Shown: positions 6,261-16,134 of the stretch, one piece after another
How positions within the stretch are numbered: the stretch's first letter is position 1
How the letters are laid out: the number at the start of each line of letters is the position of its first letter
Source of the DNA: an uncultured Ectothiorhodospiraceae bacterium
Lineage (GTDB): Bacteria; Pseudomonadota; Gammaproteobacteria; Nevskiales; Oceanococcaceae
Assembly (NCBI GenBank): GCA_937141935.1
Contig: CAKZQS010000011.1
Coordinates: forward strand, 1 to 43,332
Reading direction: 5' to 3'
Length of the DNA: 43,332 bases
Notes under the pieces: model-generated
Databases searched by the model: none
The model's input: only the letters and a program-made list of their open reading frames with translations
Told to the model about the DNA's origin: nothing
Position numbers and translations under genes: made by a program

Positions 6261-6662
6261 ATGCGCCATCGTAATTCCGGTCGTCAGCTTGGTCGCGAAA
6301 GCTCGCACCGCAAGGCCATGCTGCAGAACCTGACCAATTCGCTCTTCGAGCACGAGCTGATCAAGACGACTCTGCCGCGTGCCAAGGAACTGCGCCGCCT
6401 GGCCGAGCCGCTGATCACGCGCGCCGCCGAGGATTCCGTCGCCAACCGCCGGCTGGTCTTCGCGCGCCTGCGCAACAAGGAGATCGTGGGCAAGCTGTTC
6501 AACGAGCTGGGTCCGCGTTACAAGGCGCGCCCGGGCGGCTACCTGCGCATCCTGAAGGCCGGCTACCGCGCCGGTGACAATGCGCCGATGGCCTATGTCG
6601 AGCTGGTCGGTCGCGATGACGTGGCCGAGCCGGCCGGCGCCGAGGCCAGCAGCGAAAGCTGA
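6261..6662 (+). CDS. rplQ: 50S ribosomal protein L17
   Basis: A 133-residue protein beginning [20 protein letters not shown], the L17 signature, with the conserved [25 protein letters not shown] near residues 93-117. L17 lies near the peptide exit tunnel. It is the last gene of the alpha operon and is followed 18 bases later by a strong intrinsic terminator. The Ala/Glu/Ser-rich tail of about 15 residues is a common variable feature. Confidence 0.97.
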
Positions 6663-6680
6663 GCCTGACGGCGTCGACGA

Positions 6681-6705
6681 AAACCCCGCTCCGGCGGGGT
6701 TTTTT
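6681..6705 (+). terminator. Intrinsic terminator after the alpha operon
   Basis: AAACCCCGC (6681-6689) pairs perfectly with GCGGGGTTT (6694-6702) around a TCCG tetraloop, and the T run extends to 6705. This is a textbook rho-independent terminator 18 bases after rplQ. Confidence 0.93.
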
Positions 6706-6743
6706 GTGCCTGGCGCCCGTGGCCGGCACACGCGCGTTGTGCG

Positions 6744-6749
6744 TACAAT
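6744..6749 (+). promoter_or_regulatory. Possible -10 box upstream of the DUF1302 gene
   Basis: TACAAT lies 70 bases before the chosen start of the DUF1302 gene and after the alpha-operon terminator. A promoter is expected here because the terminator isolates the gene. No convincing -35 element is seen 16-18 bases upstream. Confidence 0.25.
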
Positions 6750-6819
6750 GCAGGCGGGCGGCGCCGGTGGACCGGCCCGTAGGGAGATCACGGTGACAGC
6801 AAGAGGAGACCACCGCGTC

Positions 6820-9384
6820 ATGCGTCGAATCATTCTGGCCCTGGGGGGGCTTGTGTGCGCCTGGCCCGCGTTGGCGGTGCAGTTCGAGCTGGACTACTTC
6901 GACGGCATCGACGGCACGCTGAACACCAACATGACGCTCGGCGCGGCGATCCGCATGCAGAAGCGCTCGAACGACCTGCTGGGCAAGGCCAACATCAACC
7001 CGCAGCTCTGCGGTACGCAGCCCGACGGCAGCAACAACAACAGCTGCCAGGGCATCAACCAGAATGACACCGGGCCCGCCGAAGCGCTGGTCGCAGGCGC
7101 TGGGCAGTTCTCGCCGAACTTCGATGACGGCAACTGGAACTACGAGCAGTACGACCTGATCCAGGCGCCGTTCAAGATCACCCAGGATCTGACGCTGGAC
7201 GCCGGCGATTACGGCCTGTTTTCCCGCTGGATCTATTTCTACGACTTCGTCAACAACGACTTCGAGGAATACCACCCCAACCGCATTGACTGCACCGGCC
7301 CGGACATCGAGGACTGCACGCCGCCCTCGGAGCCCAACTACCTGGGCACGCCGGTCAACCTGACCGGCACCACTTATGGCGCCGGCGAGGTGGTGCGCAA
7401 CCGCCGCACCAACGCCGAAATCCTGCGTCAGGCCGGCACCGACTTCCAGCTGCTGGACCTGTTCTTCTATTCCTACATCGACCTGCCCTGGGAGCGTGAG
7501 CTGAGCCTGAAGATCGGCCGCCAGAGCATCTCCTGGGGCGAATCGACGCTGCTGGTGCTGGGTTCGCTGAACTCCTCGAACCCGGTCAATGCGAACAACT
7601 TCTTCCGCGTGGGCTTCACACCGGAGGAGGTCTTCGTGCCGGTGAATACGATCTACGCCTCGACCGGGCTGACCGACAATCTGTCGATCGAGACCTTCTA
7701 CCAGCTTGAGTGGGAGCCGCTGGAGGCGCCGACCCCAGGCACCTTCTTCTCCTTTGCCGACTTCGGCACCAACAACCCGGTCAATTACGCCTCGATCTCC
7801 TTTGGCGGCCCGGCCGAGGATCCCTACAAGATCGGCACGCCGTTGAACAACCCGCTGGCCGCGCTGACGGACTCGACGACCACCATCTACAAGCGCCCGG
7901 ACAACGAGCCCAGTGACAGCGGCCAGTTCGGCGTCTCCTTCAAGTACTACGCCGAGTCCCTGAACGACGGGACCGACCTCGGCTTTTACTTCATGAACTA
8001 CCACTCGAAGCTGCCCTATGCCAGCTTCTTTTCTGCCGACCTGTCCTGTGCGCGCACGCACCCGCAGGCGCCCGAAGGGCAGGGCAGCAATACGGGGGTG
8101 GACGCTTTCAACCTCGCCACGCTGGTGCTGGCCTGCCCGAACCTGCCGATTGCCGAACAGATCACCGACCTGAACCTGGGCGGGCTGGGCGACGCGGTGC
8201 TTGACCCCACCGGCGCGGCCGCGCAGGCGATCACGGACGTCATCGGCAACGTGATTCCGATCCCGGTCTTCCAGAACGGCTTGCAGCTGCTCGGCACTGG
8301 GCCCGTCACCGATGCCGTCCCGCTGGACGAAGTGGAGTTCGTGCTCGAGTACCCCGAGGACATCCGCCTCTACGGCATGAGCTTCAACACCGCCTTTGGC
8401 GATCTGTCGCTGCAGGGCGAGTTCGCCTACAGGCCGAACATGCCGGTGCAGGTGGACGCCGAGGACCTGACCTTCGCAGCTTTGGGCACGACGCTGGCGA
8501 GCTGCCACCGCCCTCTGGCCACCGATGCGCCGGCCGGCACGCCGACCTGCGCCACGCTGGCGCCGGTTCCGGGCGCGCCCGAGCTGGTCAGCCAGTCCGG
8601 CGACAACACCTTCAACCTGATTCCGCCCACCGGCAGCGGCGAGAACGGCGACGGCGGCGACGCACCCTCGGTGCAGCGCAGCTTCCCCGCCTTCATCACC
8701 AGCTACCGCGGCATCACGCTGGGCGAGAACGAGCCCAATGCCTACATTCGCGGCTATGAGCGCATCCAGGCCCTGCAGTTCAACCTGGGGGCGACCTACA
8801 TCCTGGGCGCCACGCAAAACCCCATCGGGGCCGACCAGATCATCCTGTTGTTTGAGGCCGGCGCCAACCGCCTGCTGAACCCGCCGGATCGCTCGCTGTA
8901 CCAGATCGAGGCCCCGGGCACCTATCGCCATGCCTCGGCCGGCGTGGTCGACGAGGATTCGCTGGCGCCGGGCGACCCCAATGCCACGCCCGAGCAGATC
9001 CGCCAGGATGCGCCGGGCTGCTACGAGGGCATCTGCGTTGCCGGCAGCGACGGCCTGCGCTTCAACCCGCAGCAGGAGACGCGCCAGTACACGACGACCT
9101 CGGCCTGGGGCTATCGGGTCATCGGCATCGTGCGCTATGAGTCGGTGCTGCCGGGCATTTCGATCCAGCCCTTCTTCATCGTCGCCCACGACGTCAACGG
9201 CATCTCGCCGGGGCCTGGCGAGAACTTCGTCGAGGGTCGCAAGCAGTTCTACCTGAACGTCGAAACCCGCTACAAGAGCTCCTGGTCGCTGAACACCGGC
9301 TACGGCTGGTTCACCGGCGGCGGCTCGCAGAACCTGCTGCGCGACCGCGACTTCGCCTCGCTCTACGTCCGCTACCAGTTCTAA
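6820..9384 (+). CDS. DUF1302 family outer membrane protein
   Basis: An 854-residue secreted protein. A signal peptide ends near residue 19 (MRRIILALGGLVCAWPALA). The mature start VQFELDYFDGIDGTLNTNMTLG is the DUF1302 hallmark, followed by ISWGES near residue 237 and a C-terminal FASLYVRYQF that ends in Phe, as in beta-barrel outer membrane proteins. The ATG at 6820 is chosen because GAGGAG lies 10 bases upstream; a GTG at 6793 would add nine residues. DUF1302 genes usually precede a DUF1329 gene and often RND/MMPL exporters, in systems proposed to move hydrophobic compounds. None is present here; the next gene is a convergent symporter. The substrate is unknown. Confidence 0.85.
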   Translation: MRRIILALGGLVCAWPALAVQFELDYFDGIDGTLNTNMTLGAAIRMQKRSNDLLGKANINPQLCGTQPDGSNNNSCQGINQNDTGPAEALVAGAGQFSPNFDDGNWNYEQYDLIQAPFKITQDLTLDAGDYGLFSRWIYFYDFVNNDFEEYHPNRIDCTGPDIEDCTPPSEPNYLGTPVNLTGTTYGAGEVVRNRRTNAEILRQAGTDFQLLDLFFYSYIDLPWERELSLKIGRQSISWGESTLLVLGSLNSSNPVNANNFFRVGFTPEEVFVPVNTIYASTGLTDNLSIETFYQLEWEPLEAPTPGTFFSFADFGTNNPVNYASISFGGPAEDPYKIGTPLNNPLAALTDSTTTIYKRPDNEPSDSGQFGVSFKYYAESLNDGTDLGFYFMNYHSKLPYASFFSADLSCARTHPQAPEGQGSNTGVDAFNLATLVLACPNLPIAEQITDLNLGGLGDAVLDPTGAAAQAITDVIGNVIPIPVFQNGLQLLGTGPVTDAVPLDEVEFVLEYPEDIRLYGMSFNTAFGDLSLQGEFAYRPNMPVQVDAEDLTFAALGTTLASCHRPLATDAPAGTPTCATLAPVPGAPELVSQSGDNTFNLIPPTGSGENGDGGDAPSVQRSFPAFITSYRGITLGENEPNAYIRGYERIQALQFNLGATYILGATQNPIGADQIILLFEAGANRLLNPPDRSLYQIEAPGTYRHASAGVVDEDSLAPGDPNATPEQIRQDAPGCYEGICVAGSDGLRFNPQQETRQYTTTSAWGYRVIGIVRYESVLPGISIQPFFIVAHDVNGISPGPGENFVEGRKQFYLNVETRYKSSWSLNTGYGWFTGGGSQNLLRDRDFASLYVRYQF

Positions 9385-9777: not shown

Positions 9778-11139
9778 CTAAGCAGCCGCGTTGGGCGTCT
9801 GCGTGGGCGCCGTGTCGCTGGCCTCATCGGGTGCATAACGGGTGATGATGCGGGCGCCGACGGCGTCGCCCCAGACGTTGACGGTGGTGCGGCACATGTC
9901 CAGCAGGCGGTCGATGCCCAGGATCAGGCCCACGGCGGCCAGCGGCAGGGCCGGCACGCCCTGCAGGCTGGCGTTGACGGCTTCGACCACAATCACCATC
10001 GTCACCAGACCCGCCGAGGGAATGCCGGCGGCGCCGACCGCCGCCAGCGTAGCGGTGATGGCGACGATGGCCAGCTGCGTGGGGCCCAGCGCGATGCCAT
10101 AGGCCTGGAATAAAAAGACCACCGCCACCGCTTCGTAGAGCGCCGTGCCGTCCATGTTGATCGTGGCGCCCAGCGGCAACACGAAGCGGCTGGCGCGACG
10201 CGAACTGCCGCCGTCCTCGGCGCATTCGAGCGTGACCGGCAGCGTGGCGGAACTCGAGTCCGTGCCAAAGGCCGTCAGCAGCGCCGGGCGCATCGCGCGG
10301 GCGTAGGCGAGCGGGGAGGCCCCGCCCCACCAGCGCAGGATCAGCGGCAGGGTGAGCGTGGCGTGGACCAGCAGCCCGACAATCACGGCCAGCACGTACC
10401 AAAGCAGTGGCCCGAACAGGGCGGCCAGGCCGATGCGGGCCACCGTCCAGGCCACCAGTGCGAACACGCCGAGCGGCGCCAGGCGCAGGATCCAGTCGAC
10501 CAGCGTCATCACCGCGGCGAACAGGCCCTCGAAGAACTGCCGCGCCGGCCGGGCGCGTTCGCCCGTGCTGACGATGGCCAGCCCGAGCAGGATGGAGAAG
10601 GCGATGACCGGCAGCAGCTGAAAGTCGGCGGCGGCCCCCAGCGGGTTGGCCGGCACCAGCTGGCGCAGCAGGTTTTGCGCGGCCGCGCCAAGGCCGGCCT
10701 GGCCGGTTTGCTCGATGCGCTCGCGGCGTTCGGCGTCGGACTGCGCATAGCTTTGCTCGCCGGCCTGGGTCAGCGCGCTGCCCAGCCCGCTGCCATCGCC
10801 GTTCGGGTCGCCGGGCTGGATCAGGTTGACCACCGCCAGGCCCGTCAATACGGCGACCAGCATCGTGCCGAAGTAATACAGCACGGTGCGCCCGCCGACC
10901 CGGCCCAGGTTGCGTGGGTCGCCAATGCTGCATACGCCGACGATGACGCTGGACAGCACCAGCGGCACCAGGATCATCTTCAGCAGGCCCATGAAGACCG
11001 TATTGCCCAGCAGGGACAGGCCGGTGATCCAGCCGGCGGGCACGGCGCCCGCGTAGGCCCGATAGAGGGCCTCGCCTAACACGGCGCCGGCCACCAGGCC
11101 AGCCAGGATCCAGATGGTCAGTCGGCGGTGTGGGTTCAT
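9778..11139 (-). CDS. Dicarboxylate/amino acid:cation symporter (DAACS family)
   Basis: A 453-residue inner membrane transporter. The serine-rich motif TDSSSATLPVTL, the NMDGTALYEA motif and the C-terminal IDRLLDMCRTTVNVWGD are the DAACS/GltP/DctA signatures that form the two re-entrant loops and the substrate and sodium sites. About eight membrane helices begin directly after MNPHRRLTIW. The ATG at 11139 is chosen because GGGAGGG lies eight bases upstream; the open frame continues further but is not transporter-like. An Asn/Asp/Gln-rich insert near residues 115-150 is the usual variable loop. Glutamate, aspartate, C4-dicarboxylates or neutral amino acids are all possible substrates. It is divergent from the SDR gene. 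Confidence 0.9.
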   Translation of the reverse strand: MNPHRRLTIWILAGLVAGAVLGEALYRAYAGAVPAGWITGLSLLGNTVFMGLLKMILVPLVLSSVIVGVCSIGDPRNLGRVGGRTVLYYFGTMLVAVLTGLAVVNLIQPGDPNGDGSGLGSALTQAGEQSYAQSDAERRERIEQTGQAGLGAAAQNLLRQLVPANPLGAAADFQLLPVIAFSILLGLAIVSTGERARPARQFFEGLFAAVMTLVDWILRLAPLGVFALVAWTVARIGLAALFGPLLWYVLAVIVGLLVHATLTLPLILRWWGGASPLAYARAMRPALLTAFGTDSSSATLPVTLECAEDGGSSRRASRFVLPLGATINMDGTALYEAVAVVFLFQAYGIALGPTQLAIVAITATLAAVGAAGIPSAGLVTMVIVVEAVNASLQGVPALPLAAVGLILGIDRLLDMCRTTVNVWGDAVGARIITRYAPDEASDTAPTQTPNAAA

Positions 11140-11284
11140 GCAGGCCCTCCCATGCAGGCCCTCGGCGGTACCGCAGCAGGGTAGCAGGCGCGGGCCCCCG
11201 CGCTGCGCTAGGCTAGCCCCCTGGCCGCGTGCCGGGCCGTCGCCGCGGCCGGCCACGCGCGCAACCCCACCCGAGGAGACCCCC

Positions 11285-12133
11285 ATGAGCCTGTCCGGCA
11301 AGACCCTGTTCATCACCGGCGCCTCGCGCGGCATTGGCCTCGCCATCGCGCTGCGCGCCGCCCGCGACGGCGCCAACGTGGCCATCGCCGCGAAGACCGA
11401 CAAGCCTCACCCCAAGCTGGAGGGCACCATCCACACCGCCGCCGAGCACATCGAGGCGGCCGGCGGCCACGCGCTGCCGCTGGTCTGCGATATCCGCGAG
11501 GAGGAGCAGGTGCTGGCGGCCATCAATGCCACCGTTGAACGCTTCGGTGGCCTGGACATCTGCGTCAACAACGCCAGCGCCATCAATCTGAGCAGCTCCG
11601 AGGAGCTGCCGATGAAGCGCTATGACCTGATGCACCAGATCAACGCCCGCGGCACGTTTCTCGTCTCGCGCAGCTGTGTGCCGCACCTGCGCAAGGCCAG
11701 CAACCCGCATGTGCTGAACATCTCCCCGCCGCTGGACTGGGACAGCCAATGGTTCGAGCGCCACCCCGCCTACAGCCTGGCGAAGTACGCGATGAGCGTG
11801 TATGCCTGGGCCATGGCGGCCGAGTTCCGCCGCGACGGCATCGCCTTCAACTGCCTGTGGCCGCGCACGACCATCGCCACGGCGGCGGTGCGCAACCTGC
11901 TCGGTGGCGAGCAGATGGTGGCCGCCAGCCGCAAGCCCGATATCATGGGCGACGCCGCCTGGCACATCCTGACCCGGCCGGCGCGCGAGGCCAGCGGGCA
12001 GTTCTTCATCGATGACCTGGTGCTCGAGGCCGCCGGCGAAACCGACTTCGAGCAGTACGCCGTCACCCCGGGGGCCGAGCTGATGCCGGACTTTTTTGTG
12101 CCCACATCCACCCCGCCGCTGGGCGCCAAGTGA
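11285..12133 (+). CDS. Short-chain dehydrogenase, HSDL2-like
   Basis: A 282-residue NAD(P)-dependent oxidoreductase of the SDR superfamily. The cofactor motif is TGASRGIG (about residues 10-17), NNAS follows near residue 97, and the catalytic YSLAK is near residue 163. The LNISPPL stretch and the post-catalytic AFNCLWPRTTIATAAV segment are typical of the HSDL2 branch, which includes human HSDL2. The C-terminal SCP2 lipid-binding domain of eukaryotic HSDL2 is absent. The substrate is probably a fatty or hydrophobic carbonyl, but this is inference. GAGGAG lies nine bases before the ATG. Confidence 0.88.
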   Translation: MSLSGKTLFITGASRGIGLAIALRAARDGANVAIAAKTDKPHPKLEGTIHTAAEHIEAAGGHALPLVCDIREEEQVLAAINATVERFGGLDICVNNASAINLSSSEELPMKRYDLMHQINARGTFLVSRSCVPHLRKASNPHVLNISPPLDWDSQWFERHPAYSLAKYAMSVYAWAMAAEFRRDGIAFNCLWPRTTIATAAVRNLLGGEQMVAASRKPDIMGDAAWHILTRPAREASGQFFIDDLVLEAAGETDFEQYAVTPGAELMPDFFVPTSTPPLGAK

Positions 12134-12148
12134 TCCCGACAATCGCCG

Positions 12149-12177
12149 CTATTGCAAATGAAAATCGTTCGCAATAG
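12149..12177 (+). promoter_or_regulatory. Fur-box-like palindrome
   Basis: A 29-base near-palindrome: left arm CTATTGCAAATGA (12149-12161), centre AAA, right arm TCGTTCGCAATAG (12165-12177). The arms match at 11 of 13 positions when one is inverted. The core AAATGAAAATCGTT resembles the proteobacterial Fur consensus of alternating GATAAT hexamers. It lies 33 bases before the GTG of the following small ORF, where a Fur repressor would block transcription. It is also 15 bases after the SDR stop, so it cannot act as that gene's operator. Confidence 0.6.
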
Positions 12178-12209
12178 GATCGGGGCTCCACTCGCATCCG
12201 GAGCCCGCC

Positions 12210-12524
12210 GTGAGCACCGCCCCCGTACACGTCTGCCTGGAGGACGGGCAGCCCTGCCTGCAGATCATTGATGCCGATACCGCCAGCGTGCGCCTGGCCT
12301 GGCGCGCGCCCGCCGAGGGCGAGGACCTGGACCGCCTGGGTCTGCGAGATTTCTGCCGCGAATGCTTGCTGATGCAGGCGGCCGCCGCGTGGTGGCAGGA
12401 CGATGAGCCGGCCCGCGTGGCTGACGGCCGCCGGCTTTCGCCGCTTGCGCGACGAACATCAGGCGCTGTGGCAGCGGCGGCGCGAGGTGGTGGCCGCGCT
12501 GTCCGCCGCCGCCGCCGAGGGTGA
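12210..12524 (+). CDS. Small protein of unknown function, possibly Fur-regulated
   Basis: The frame opens with GTG at 12210, about six bases after CGGAG, and reads MSTAPVHVCLEDGQPCLQII, then DADTASVRLAWRAP and a region with CRECLLM. These first 65 residues look like a real soluble protein with four Cys. From about residue 65 the frame overlaps greB in another register, and residues 70-104 become an Arg/Ala/Gly run typical of an out-of-frame reading. The stop at 12524 is 122 bases inside greB. Either the tail is genuine overlap, or a frameshift or sequence error hides an earlier stop. I do not recognise the family. A role in iron or oxidative stress is suggested only by the upstream Fur-like box. 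Confidence 0.45.
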   Translation: MSTAPVHVCLEDGQPCLQIIDADTASVRLAWRAPAEGEDLDRLGLRDFCRECLLMQAAAAWWQDDEPARVADGRRLSPLARRTSGAVAAAARGGGRAVRRRRRG

Positions 12525-12891
12525 TCGCTCGGAAAACGCCGAGTACATCTATCGCAAGAAGGAGCTGCGCGAGGTCGACCGCCGGCTGCGCTACCTGGGG
12601 CGCACGCTGGAGCAGGCCGAGGTCGTGCGCGAGGCGCCGGCCGACCCCAGCCGCGCGCGCTTCGGCGCCTGGGTCACGCTGGAGGACGAAGCGGGCCAGC
12701 CGCACCGCCTGCGCATTGTCGGCGCCTACGAGGCCGACCCCGCGCAGGGGCTGATCAGCCTGGACGCCCCCCTGGCGCGTGCGGTGCTGGGAAAGTCCGT
12801 CGGCGACGAGATCGTGTTCGAGGCCGCCGGCCAGCGCCGCGAGTGGTGGCTTTGCGCTATCGAGTACGAGACCGTGGCGGAGGGCGATTAA
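12403..12891 (+). CDS. greB: Transcription elongation factor GreB
   Basis: A 162-residue Gre-family factor. The N-terminal coiled coil includes TAAGFRRLRDEH and the tip motif EGDRSENAEYIYRKKELREVDRRLRYL (about residues 39-65). Its acidic residues place Mg2+ in the RNA polymerase secondary channel for transcript cleavage. The C-terminal FKBP-like domain ends at GDEIVFEAAGQRREW. The spacing after the tip and the -YRKK- sequence favour GreB over GreA. The ATG at 12403 gives a normal N-terminus; a TGA in this frame at 12370 excludes a longer form. The start lies inside the preceding small ORF in another frame. It is convergent with purH. Confidence 0.92.
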   Translation: MSRPAWLTAAGFRRLRDEHQALWQRRREVVAALSAAAAEGDRSENAEYIYRKKELREVDRRLRYLGRTLEQAEVVREAPADPSRARFGAWVTLEDEAGQPHRLRIVGAYEADPAQGLISLDAPLARAVLGKSVGDEIVFEAAGQRREWWLCAIEYETVAEGD

Positions 12892-13232
12892 GTCGCGACA
12901 GCTGGGGCCCGGCACATGCGGTGAAAGTCGGCTATGGCGCGCGCGCGGCGGTGCGGCTCCGCGGGCTACGCTGGGCTGATCCTCCCTCCGGCGGGGCCGG
13001 CCGGGCGGGGCTCCTGCCCCGTCGGCCGGGGCGCGCGTCCCTGCGCGCCCCCTGCGGGCTGTTCCCGCCTCCACTCGGGCCTGCGCTCATGCCCGCTCCG
13101 CCGCCCCGCCGCGCCGTTTCGCGATGTCGTAGCGACCAAGCCGTCGGCGCTTTGTTGCCGCTATGCCGCGCCGATGGCTTAGCTCCGCCCGGGTTTGGAG
13201 GAAAGGCGTACTCGAAGCGTCGAGGGGCAGGC
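12892..13232. other. GC-rich gap between convergent greB and purH
   Basis: This 341-base stretch has no gene I can support. It contains strong potential hairpins, notably GGGGCGCGC (13028-13036) pairing perfectly with GCGCGCCCC (13043-13051), and GGGG/CCCC arms around CTCCTG just upstream. No T-rich intrinsic terminator is evident, although both genes must end here. Open frames crossing it have no coding character. It may be a species-specific repeat; only a genome-wide comparison would show that. Confidence 0.4.
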
Positions 13233-14816
13233 TTAGTGGCGGAAGTGCCGGCGGCCGGTCAGCGCCATCGCCACGCCCTCGGCGTCGGCGGCCTCGATGA
13301 CGGCGTCGTCGCGCATCGAGCCGCCAGGCTGCACCACCACCTTGGCGCCGGCTTCGATGCCGGCCAGCATCGCGTCGGGGAAGGGGAAGAAGGCATCCGA
13401 GGCCATCACGCTGCCTTCCAGCGACAGCCCGGCGTCCTCGGCCTTGCGCACGGCGATGCGCACGCTGTCCAGCCGGCTCATTTGCCCGGCGCCGATGGCC
13501 AGGGTGCGGCCGTCACGCACGAAGACGATGGCGTTGGACTTGACCATCTTGACCACCGACCAGGCGAAGCGGATGTCGTCGCGGGCCGCGTCGGGCACGG
13601 CGCGCTCGGTCACGCTGCGGATCTCGTCCTCGGCCAGGCGCGGCAGGTCCGCCTGCTGCACCAGCACGCCGCCCGAGACGCTGCGCATGTCCAGCCGGTC
13701 CTGCTGCGGCAGCTCGCCATGGGTCTGCAGCACACGCACATTGGGCTTGTCGGCCAGCCGCTCCAGCGCATCGGCGGCGAAGCTCGGCGCGATCAGCACC
13801 TCCAGGAACTGGCGCTCCAGAATCATCGCGGCCAGGTCGGCATTGACCTCGCTGTTGAAGGCGATGATGCCGCCAAAGGCGGAGGTCGGGTCGCAAGCGT
13901 AGGCGCCCTCGTAGGCCGCCACCAAATCGGCGCCCAGCGCCACGCCGCAGGGGTTGGCGTGCTTGACGATGACGCAGGCCGGCTCATCGAATTCGTTGAC
14001 GGCCTGCCAGGCCGCGTCGGCGTCGGCGATGTTGTTATAGGACAGCGCCTTGCCCTGGCGCAGCGTCGCGCGCGCCAGCGTGCCCTCGGCGGCGCCGGCG
14101 TCGGCATAAAAGCCGGCGGCCTGGTGCGGGTTTTCGCCATAGCGCAGGGCGGTGTGCAGCTGCCACTGGCCGCCATAGACGGGCGGCAGCGTCAGCGCGC
14201 GCTGGGTCTCGCCTTCGCAGCGGCCCAGCCAGTCGACGATCGCGGCGTCGTAGGCCGCCGTGTGGGCATAGGCCTTCAGCGCCAGGCGTTGGCGCAGCGC
14301 GAAGTCGGGGCCCTCGCCCTGTTGCGCCGCCAGCACGGCCGGGAAATCGGCCGGGTCGACAACGACGGTCACGTCGCGGTGGTTCTTGGCGGCGGCGCGC
14401 AGCATGGCCGGCCCGCCGATGTCGATGTTCTCGATGGCGGTGGCGTAGTCGGCGCCGCCGGCAATCGTTTCGCGGAAGGGGTACAGGTTCACCACCACGA
14501 GGTCGATGGCCGTGATGCCCTGTTCGTCCAGCGTGGCCTCATCGGTGCCGCGGCGGGCCAGGATGCCGCCGTGGATTTTCGGGTGCAGCGTTTTGACCCG
14601 CCCGCCAAGAATCTCCGGCGCGCCGGTGTGCTCGGCGACCTCGGTGACTGCGATACCGGCCTCGCGCAACGCGCGCGCCGTGCCGCCGGAGCTCAGCAGG
14701 GTGATGCCGGCCGCCTGCAGCTCACGGGCGAAGTCGACGATGCCCGTCTTGTCGGAAACCGAGAGCAGGGCGGTGCGGATCGGGCGCGGGTGGGCAGCGG
14801 GCTTCGGGTCGGTCAT
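13233..14816 (-). CDS. purH: Bifunctional AICAR formyltransferase / IMP cyclohydrolase
   Basis: A 527-residue enzyme for the last two steps of IMP synthesis, of normal length. The N-terminal IMP cyclohydrolase domain (about 1-200) has ALLSVSDKTGIVDFA, LLSSGGTARALREAG and GGRVKTLHPKIHGGILARR. The C-terminal formyltransferase domain has YGENPHQAAGF, the catalytic KHANPCGVALG and ASDAFFPFPD. It lies downstream of fis on the same strand, with an 81-base gap that includes the end of fis. In many gammaproteobacteria purD follows purH; here greB converges instead. Confidence 0.97.
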   Translation of the reverse strand: MTDPKPAAHPRPIRTALLSVSDKTGIVDFARELQAAGITLLSSGGTARALREAGIAVTEVAEHTGAPEILGGRVKTLHPKIHGGILARRGTDEATLDEQGITAIDLVVVNLYPFRETIAGGADYATAIENIDIGGPAMLRAAAKNHRDVTVVVDPADFPAVLAAQQGEGPDFALRQRLALKAYAHTAAYDAAIVDWLGRCEGETQRALTLPPVYGGQWQLHTALRYGENPHQAAGFYADAGAAEGTLARATLRQGKALSYNNIADADAAWQAVNEFDEPACVIVKHANPCGVALGADLVAAYEGAYACDPTSAFGGIIAFNSEVNADLAAMILERQFLEVLIAPSFAADALERLADKPNVRVLQTHGELPQQDRLDMRSVSGGVLVQQADLPRLAEDEIRSVTERAVPDAARDDIRFAWSVVKMVKSNAIVFVRDGRTLAIGAGQMSRLDSVRIAVRKAEDAGLSLEGSVMASDAFFPFPDAMLAGIEAGAKVVVQPGGSMRDDAVIEAADAEGVAMALTGRRHFRH

Positions 14817-14897
14817 CGCGGCGGGTCCGGGGGAAAAACGGCGCAGTATGCCAGCCCCGGGCCGCGCTCAGCCCGTCAACCGTCGCCGAGCAGGCAC

Positions 14898-15182
14898 CTA
14901 GCCCTCGTGCAGGTCGTACTTCTGCAGCTTCTTGCGCAGCGTGGCGCGATTGATGCCCAGGATGGCCGAGGCCCGCGTGTTATTGCCCTCGCAGTAGGCC
15001 AGCACCTCGCGCAGCAGCGGTCGCTCAAACTCTTCGATCAGGGTTTCGTAGAGCGGGGCCGGCTTGGCGCCGTTCAGCGTCTGCAGGTAATCGCGGACGC
15101 AGTTTTCGACGTAGTAGCCCAAAGGCCGGTGTTCGGGCTCGAGCTGGGCGTTTTGCTGGGGCTGCGCGGCAGCGTCCGACAT
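14898..15182 (-). CDS. fis: DNA-binding protein Fis
   Basis: A 94-residue nucleoid protein from the ATG at 15182; an in-frame ATG at 15194 would add four residues. The C-terminal half carries the Fis helix-turn-helix: LREVLAYCEGNNTRASAILG then INRATLRKKLQKYDL. The middle has LGYYVENCVRDYLQ, close to the E. coli core. Fis bends DNA and controls rRNA promoters, recombination and supercoiling. It is placed between prmA and purH, a common gammaproteobacterial order (often dusB-fis in enterics, fis-purH in pseudomonads). It probably has its own promoter (15224-15251). Confidence 0.95.
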   Translation of the reverse strand: MSDAAAQPQQNAQLEPEHRPLGYYVENCVRDYLQTLNGAKPAPLYETLIEEFERPLLREVLAYCEGNNTRASAILGINRATLRKKLQKYDLHEG

Positions 15183-15223
15183 GGCGATGCGCAAAGAGCG
15201 ATTGGCGGGCAGTAGGCCGGCGG

Positions 15224-15251
15224 ATGATACGCCCCCGCAGGCAAAAGTCTA
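15224..15251 (-). promoter_or_regulatory. Likely sigma70 promoter of fis-purH
   Basis: On the minus strand TAGACT (15251-15246) and TATCAT (15229-15224) are separated by 16 bases, each matching the consensus at four or more of six positions. The -35 element overlaps the prmA stop codon. Transcription would start near 15217, 35 bases before the fis ATG. Confidence 0.45.
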
Positions 15252-16134
15252 GTCGCGACTTTTACGACGGCCCACCAGCAGCGCCCATTCCTCCTGCACG
15301 CGGCGCTCGAAGCTCCAGCCGGGGAAGGCGGCGGCCACGGCCCCGGCCTGGCTGTCGAGCAGGCCGGCCAGCAGTAGCGTCGCGTCGGGCGTGGCCAGCG
15401 CGTCGAGTTCGCCGGCCAGTTCGATCAGCGTACCGGCCAGGATGTTGGCCAGCACCAGTTCGAAGGGGCCGGCGGCGCGGGCCTGGGCGCAGGGCACCAG
15501 GGCCATCGACACCGCGTTGGCGGCCGCGTTGTCGCCGCTGGCCAGCAGGGCCTGCGGGTCGATGTCGCAGCCGTGCACGCTGCGGGCGCCGAGCTTGGCG
15601 GCGGCGATGCCGAGGATGCCCGAGCCGCAGCCATAGTCGATGACACTGCGGCCGGCCAGCTCGGCCGAGCCCAGCCAGTGCAGGCACAGCGCCGTGCTGG
15701 GGTGGGTGCCGGTGCCGAAAGCCAGGCCGGGGTCCAGACGCAGCAGCACGCGGCCGTCCTCGGGCACGGCGGCCTCCTGCGGGGCCACCCGCAGGCGCTC
15801 GCCGAATGTCATCGGCGCGTAGTGCGCCAGCCAGGCACGCTCCCAGACCTGTTCGGGCAGCGCATCCCATTGCGTGGCCAGGACCCGGTCGCCCGCGCCG
15901 GCGGCCAGGCGCGCCTCGATGTCGGCGCGGTCATCCTGCGCGGCAAACAGCCCGGTCAGGCGCGTGCGCGGCCACAGCGGCGTGGCGCCCGGCGCAGGCT
16001 CCAGCACCGGGTCATCGGCATCGTCTTCAAAGGTCACGGCCAGCGCGCCACAGGCCTCCAGGATCTCGGCCACGGCTTCGGGCTCCCGGCAGCGCAGGCG
16101 CAGCTGCTGCCAGGCCGGCGCCGCGCCCTCGCCC

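Follow-up and report, generated by a model that had tools for sequence, protein, structure and literature searches.

Two described systems lie closest to the locus analysed here: PA4570 of Pseudomonas aeruginosa, which like the protein described below is a small protein encoded behind a Fur box, and DksA2, which like GreB acts in the secondary channel of RNA polymerase. PA4570 is reported to be induced by iron starvation and furnished with a canonical Fur site (PMC13277308), to be less abundant at the protein level when iron is high than when it is low (PMC8534726), and to be a member of a metal-restriction gene set that also includes sodM (PMC10473638); it also appears in a table of PMC4597187. 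According to a further report, the small RNA RsmW derives from the PA4570 3' UTR, and a weak likeness of the protein to RsmA was proposed, with no complementation (PMC4950607). In P. aeruginosa dksA2 is reported to be repressed by Zur, a metal regulator of the Fur family (PMC9213440). For greB, a literature search with iron or Fur returned no case of a Fur- or iron-driven greB among the matches listed, and an array study of Neisseria gonorrhoeae gives a change of -1.8-fold under iron depletion (PMC3032703 Table 2). Gre factors are reported to help Salmonella with oxidative stress (PMC10072461), and a role for GreB under stress is plausible.

The window, by which we mean the whole 43,332-nucleotide stretch of DNA that was analysed, carries a small ORF between a gene for an SDR-family oxidoreductase and greB, with the following features:

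11285 to 12133, + strand: gene for an SDR-family oxidoreductase (NF006133, 441 bits), stop codon at 12131 to 12133
12149 to 12177, no strand: palindrome of 29 bases, a predicted extended Fur box, with its 19-base core at 12154 to 12172
12152 to 12180, + strand: putative sigma-70 promoter, TTGCAA (12152 to 12157), 17 bases, TAGGAT (12175 to 12180), with the Fur box as spacer
12200 to 12203, + strand: GGAG ribosome binding site of the small ORF, six bases before the GTG at 12210
12210 to 12524, + strand: small ORF with a GTG start, 104 aa; residues 1 to 64 conserved and PA4570-like, residues 65 to 104 in the greB overlap and not conserved
12403 to 12891, + strand: greB, 162 aa (PF03449, E 6e-21; PF01272, E 5.7e-20)
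12403 to 12524, + strand: out-of-frame overlap of the small ORF and greB, 122 bases

The SDR frame is open from 11114, and the ATG at 11285 is the start that fits its homologues; the palindrome begins 16 bases after the last base of its stop codon. The greB start falls within codon 65 of the small ORF, one base off its frame. An earlier reading of this DNA from its letters (hereafter the sequence-only reading) had placed the palindrome, the GTG-started ORF with its ribosome binding site and the greB overlap to within a base of these positions; its palindrome stands where it was put, and the gap from there to the GTG is 32 bases, not the 33 it gave, with 37 bases between the Fur core and the start codon.

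The small ORF almost certainly encodes a real protein. A query of its first 64 residues matched 49 of 61 genomes at E <= 1, mostly as noise, with its best matches in G001, a second species of the same genus (E 9.2e-26), G007 (6.4e-7), G006 (4.8e-5) and G019 (2.9e-4). Over the 64 residues before greB the window and G001 proteins are 67% identical, their DNA being 66% identical over 192 bases, and codon differences in the ORF number 20, 13 and 33 at first, second and third positions, so that the third position varies most. When a profile of 32 relatives, built without the window genome and G001, was run against all 604 ORFs of the window, this ORF was the sole significant match (E 1.7e-10; the next, 0.44). 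The claim of the sequence-only reading that the first 65 residues look coding is borne out by both searches. No Pfam family covers the ORF, and two scans of genome contigs found no relative. Plasmid transfer was considered and rejected, a search of plasmids giving no match at E <= 1.

The distribution of the family is patchy. A profile that included both species recovered relatives from 16 of the 85 genomes in the order, two being the query species, and the sister genus (G002 and G003) has no family match; an earlier profile reached 33 of 369 genomes of the class at E <= 0.01, the weakest rows being doubtful. Of the 30 loci retrieved in that class search (34 matches in 33 genomes, four rows lacking a locus) we used 23 (L034 to L056). 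Those left outside were three that repeat G008, G001 and G000 (L031 to L033), three that are not family-like by eye (L057, L058 and L060) and the partial L059. Nine order-level loci, some of them near-duplicates, were added (L003, L005, L006, L008, L009, L011, L013, L014 and L016), and three loci of genus g5 (L004, L007 and L015) were excluded from the resulting 32. In the g5 loci the PA4570-like ORF overlaps the end of the upstream ORF, with a Fur-like box of 13.4 to 14.4 bits some 740 bases upstream in L004 and L007 and at the matching place in L015. At L048 (G256), an ORF with a ferritin-like start, judged by eye, lies 174 bases after the PA4570-like gene.

The only curated relative is NF050178, the NCBIfam equivalog model for the PA4570 family, with a curated cut-off of 100 bits. 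In the first alignment that contained the window protein, 9 of 11 rows match this model in the N-terminal strands (best E 1.5e-7), and one relative from the class search (L055) exceeds the cut-off at 114.6 bits. The window protein gives no match to the model at E <= 5, its genome (G000) and G001 give none at E <= 0.01, and none of the 85 genomes of the order rises above the cut-off. Judged by these comparisons, the window protein is a distant relative of PA4570 and not a member of its family. What is new here is this distant relative, and the novelty lies in its linkage to greB: where PA4570 yields RsmW from its 3' UTR (PMC4950607), the window gene runs into an overlapping greB instead.

Folded as a single sequence, the protein is predicted to have strands at residues 6 to 11, 14 to 21 and 26 to 32 and a helix at 45 to 63 in the best model (mean pLDDT 82.4, pTM 0.51; pLDDT 53.6 to 63.7 in the other four), and three short strands and a helix probably make up the conserved core of the group. 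Foldseek on the single-sequence model returned no match to solved structures at E <= 0.001, and a PDB profile search gave one unrelated match (E 0.086). An RsmA/CsrA-like protein was considered and gained no support, there being no Pfam family and no match of that kind by PDB profile or by Foldseek on this model. The sequence-only reading had drawn attention to four cysteines in the first 65 residues; they are present (positions 9, 16, 49 and 52), but they are not a family feature, C9 being Gly in G001 and C49 and C52 being Phe or Leu in many other rows, and a common cysteine metal site was rejected because these residues are not conserved. A role in the iron-starvation response would be the likeliest guess for the small protein, judged from regulation only, as for PA4570.

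The palindrome is the inverted repeat CTATTGCAAATGA / TCGTTCGCAATAG, with arms at 12149 to 12161 and 12165 to 12177. Its symmetry alone is within chance expectation: pairing occurs at 11 of 14 arm positions, and a set of 20 random windows gives 11 to 13. The same is true of simple agreement with the Fur consensus of E. coli type, which is 13 of 19 against 11 to 13 in 20 random windows. We scored it with a symmetric matrix made from 29 sites, which derive from the best box per 150 bases upstream in the 32 relatives, the window genome and G001 being excluded. On this matrix, whose training sites had been selected for likeness to the Fur consensus, the window site at 12154 reaches 23.1 bits, with the next non-overlapping site in the window at 6.4; none of 200 random windows equalled it (maximum 18.3), and the box in G001 scores 24.1 bits. 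Among the relatives themselves, 29 of 32 have a box of at least 12 of 19 matches in the 150 bases searched, and in 27 the shuffle p is 0.05 or below. The five with no significant box are L035, L036, L044 (p 0.06), L045 and L056; the contigs of L045 and L056 leave fewer than 60 bases of upstream DNA, and L035 has a 22.4-bit site at 1209, by our own reckoning 58 bases before its start.

The same type of box occurs elsewhere in the window's own genome. A pattern taken from the window box and run over the whole genome with up to 3 mismatches found 11 matches, and its reversed control none; one match is the box itself and two are a single site read on both strands, so that 9 further sites remain. 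Of these, three lie next to iron-type genes, for a Bfd-domain protein (bfd, 18.6 bits), a TonB-dependent receptor (20.6 bits, with an AraC gene on the opposite side of the box from the TonB-receptor-plug ORF) and an FAD/NAD reductase (20.5 bits), so that these genes have upstream the same box type as the small ORF; their downstream genes aside, none of the three was seen to overlap an unrelated housekeeping gene as the small ORF does. The remaining six sites score 0.9 to 14.3 bits. That TonB-receptor-plug ORF (L077:827-1450, contig C51) ends after 207 aa, and the receptor gene may be interrupted. The genome encodes a Fur protein (E 2.0e-43) and has a second, weaker FUR-family match (6.1e-20). 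We read the palindrome as a Fur-type box, a case that rests on related genes and not on symmetry, and consider it very probable that the small ORF is under Fur control. The Fur-like core proposed in the sequence-only reading was thus upheld by scanning with a weight matrix.

The promoter is less distinct. Its hexamers, TTGCAA-17-TAGGAT, were picked by eye and agree with the sigma-70 consensus at 8 of 12 positions, and a promoter scan at a threshold of 9 of 12 found none; the equivalent reading in G001 is TTGCAA-17-TAATAT. The window pair is probably a sigma-70 promoter with the Fur box as its spacer. As regards membership of the Fur regulon, the matrix test supplies a Fur-type operator, and the promoter that overlaps it consists of weak hexamers read by eye. 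No terminator-like site was found in 11900 to 13250. A terminator scan of our own over the family loci found sites behind 2 of 34 and is too insensitive to use. A perfect 7-base inverted repeat (12183 to 12189 and 12200 to 12206) takes in the small ORF's ribosome binding site; whether this hairpin is present in the RNA depends on the start site, since the assumed start near 12187 removes part of the first arm. In L044, L047, L049 and L052 about 100 bases separate the Fur box from the start, and fewer in L042 and L046; these leaders look alike among several relatives and may contain a structured element or a small RNA. A small RNA as at PA4570 was considered for the window and gained no support, no Rfam family matching anywhere in 10500 to 15500.

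Taken together, it is likely that a Fur-repressed promoter drives both the PA4570-like protein and greB on the same RNA. This reading draws on a predicted Fur-type box like that before most relatives, on a conserved and apparently coding ORF, on a greB start inside that ORF, on the same layout in G001, the other of the two genomes compared from this genus, and on a predicted Fur protein in the genome. With iron present, Fur occupying the spacer of the -35 and -10 hexamers would block the promoter; with iron absent, RNA would begin near 12187, be translated from the GTG at 12210 and continue through greB. The RNA would run on in this way because greB starts inside the small gene, leaving no room for a terminator before it. 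An AGGA lies five bases before the greB ATG, and initiation there may be aided or impeded by ribosomes translating the small ORF.

How far greB itself follows iron is a more tentative matter. The greB product has the N- and C-terminal GreA/GreB domains above their Pfam cut-offs, its two best NCBIfam models are GreB models that it narrowly misses (NF002506, 175.3 bits for a cut-off of 188; another, 169.7 for 171.05), and the genome has no second GreB match at E <= 1e-25. In this it differs from dksA2, which is an extra paralogue and is tied to zinc and not to iron. We consider a clear iron response of greB possible, at somewhat under an even chance. The stronger statement is that in this genus the Fur-controlled PA4570-like cassette has wired GreB, the genome's only match for this transcript-cleavage factor, to iron starvation, GreB rising when iron is short and its translation being coupled to the overlapping small gene; it is put forward tentatively, at below an even chance.

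A substantial alternative, which we would also put at below an even chance, is that the small ORF is Fur-regulated but iron has no practical effect on greB, whose RNA would come mostly by way of the SDR operon or of a promoter inside it, the link between the two being incidental. An SDR homologue stands beside greB at 17 of 30 greB loci, window and G001 included, so that adjacency of the two is the common state; in G002 and G003, of the sister genus, the last base of the SDR stop is also the first of greB and neither the ORF nor the box is present, and in G016 the gap is 12 bases. Only the window genome and G001 have greB some 1.5 kb or less from the family gene, the loci of the 32 other relatives being without it, and the gonococcal figure quoted above (PMC3032703), the sole iron figure found for greB, has the opposite sign. 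An iron effect on greB could be masked or swamped by transcripts that enter from the SDR gene, as in the sister genus, or that start at an internal promoter. Against this, both species carry the Fur-box promoter and its cassette between SDR gene and greB (269 bases in the window, 347 in G001), and any transcript of the Fur promoter long enough to span the small ORF must include the start of greB. We make no claim for a Fur box before greB elsewhere: the close relatives L094 and L096 show 12 and 13 of 19 matches at -186, but their matrix scores are only 11.6 and 9.2 bits, and the best score anywhere in the other 28 greB loci is 13.5 bits, against 23.1 in the window and 24.1 in G001. The Fur promoter and small gene of this genus thus occupy a junction at which SDR gene and greB adjoin elsewhere, the cassette having been either gained in this genus or lost in the sister genus. 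At L110 (G010) the SDR-greB gap of 512 bases holds a pair of small genes, RelB/RelE toxin-antitoxin-like by eye, indicating that the junction has taken other inserts.

The overlap with greB is found in both genomes of the genus searched. The frame of the small ORF begins 193 bases before the greB ATG in the window and 190 in G001, both 1 modulo 3, and in G001 too it passes the ATG and ends near the same greB motif. That the overlap is functional, either through selection on an Arg-rich tail of the small protein or by tuning greB translation, is improbable. In both species the frame does continue beyond the point where greB begins, and where a greB residue is identical its codon is more often unchanged within the overlap (12 of 24) than elsewhere in greB (20 of 64), but the Fisher p is 0.14; the tails share only 6 of 37 residues, synonymous resampling of greB by codon usage gives an open stretch in the other frame no shorter than the real one with probability 0.70 in the window and 0.89 in G001, and past the conserved helix the tails vary in length and sequence across relatives. 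The genuinely overlapping pair suggested by the sequence-only reading therefore holds as anatomy and gains no support as a selected tail: the overlap is common to both species, its second reading bears no sign of selection, and its 122 bases are probably a by-product of there being no stop codon before greB. Elsewhere in the window, an 896-codon open frame (6499 to 9189, - strand) lies antisense to a 936-codon ORF (6574 to 9384, + strand) and is probably a by-product of high G+C.

A sequencing frameshift or a decayed gene, with the true ORF ending at the greB start, is very improbable. It would give the usual look of a coupled pair, as a TGA in another frame overlaps the greB ATG (ATGA), but in G001, at 66% DNA identity over the 192 bases, the two frames are related in the same way and the ORF likewise continues beyond the ATG, so the same error would be needed twice; this excludes a sequencing frameshift in practice, and with it the proposal that the protein's true end is hidden by one. 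A chance ORF beside a chance palindrome, to which the unremarkable symmetry and consensus match, the two contig scans with no relative and the lack of a Pfam family might point, can be dismissed in view of the held-out profile match (E 1.7e-10), the 23.1-bit matrix score and the same-genus homologue.

With this analysis a formerly unannotated ORF gains an identity, distantly related to PA4570 with its reported induction by iron starvation, and the group of Fur-led small genes is seen to extend well beyond the curated PA4570 family. If it is true that greB follows Fur, control of RNA polymerase backtracking would be tied to iron in these bacteria.
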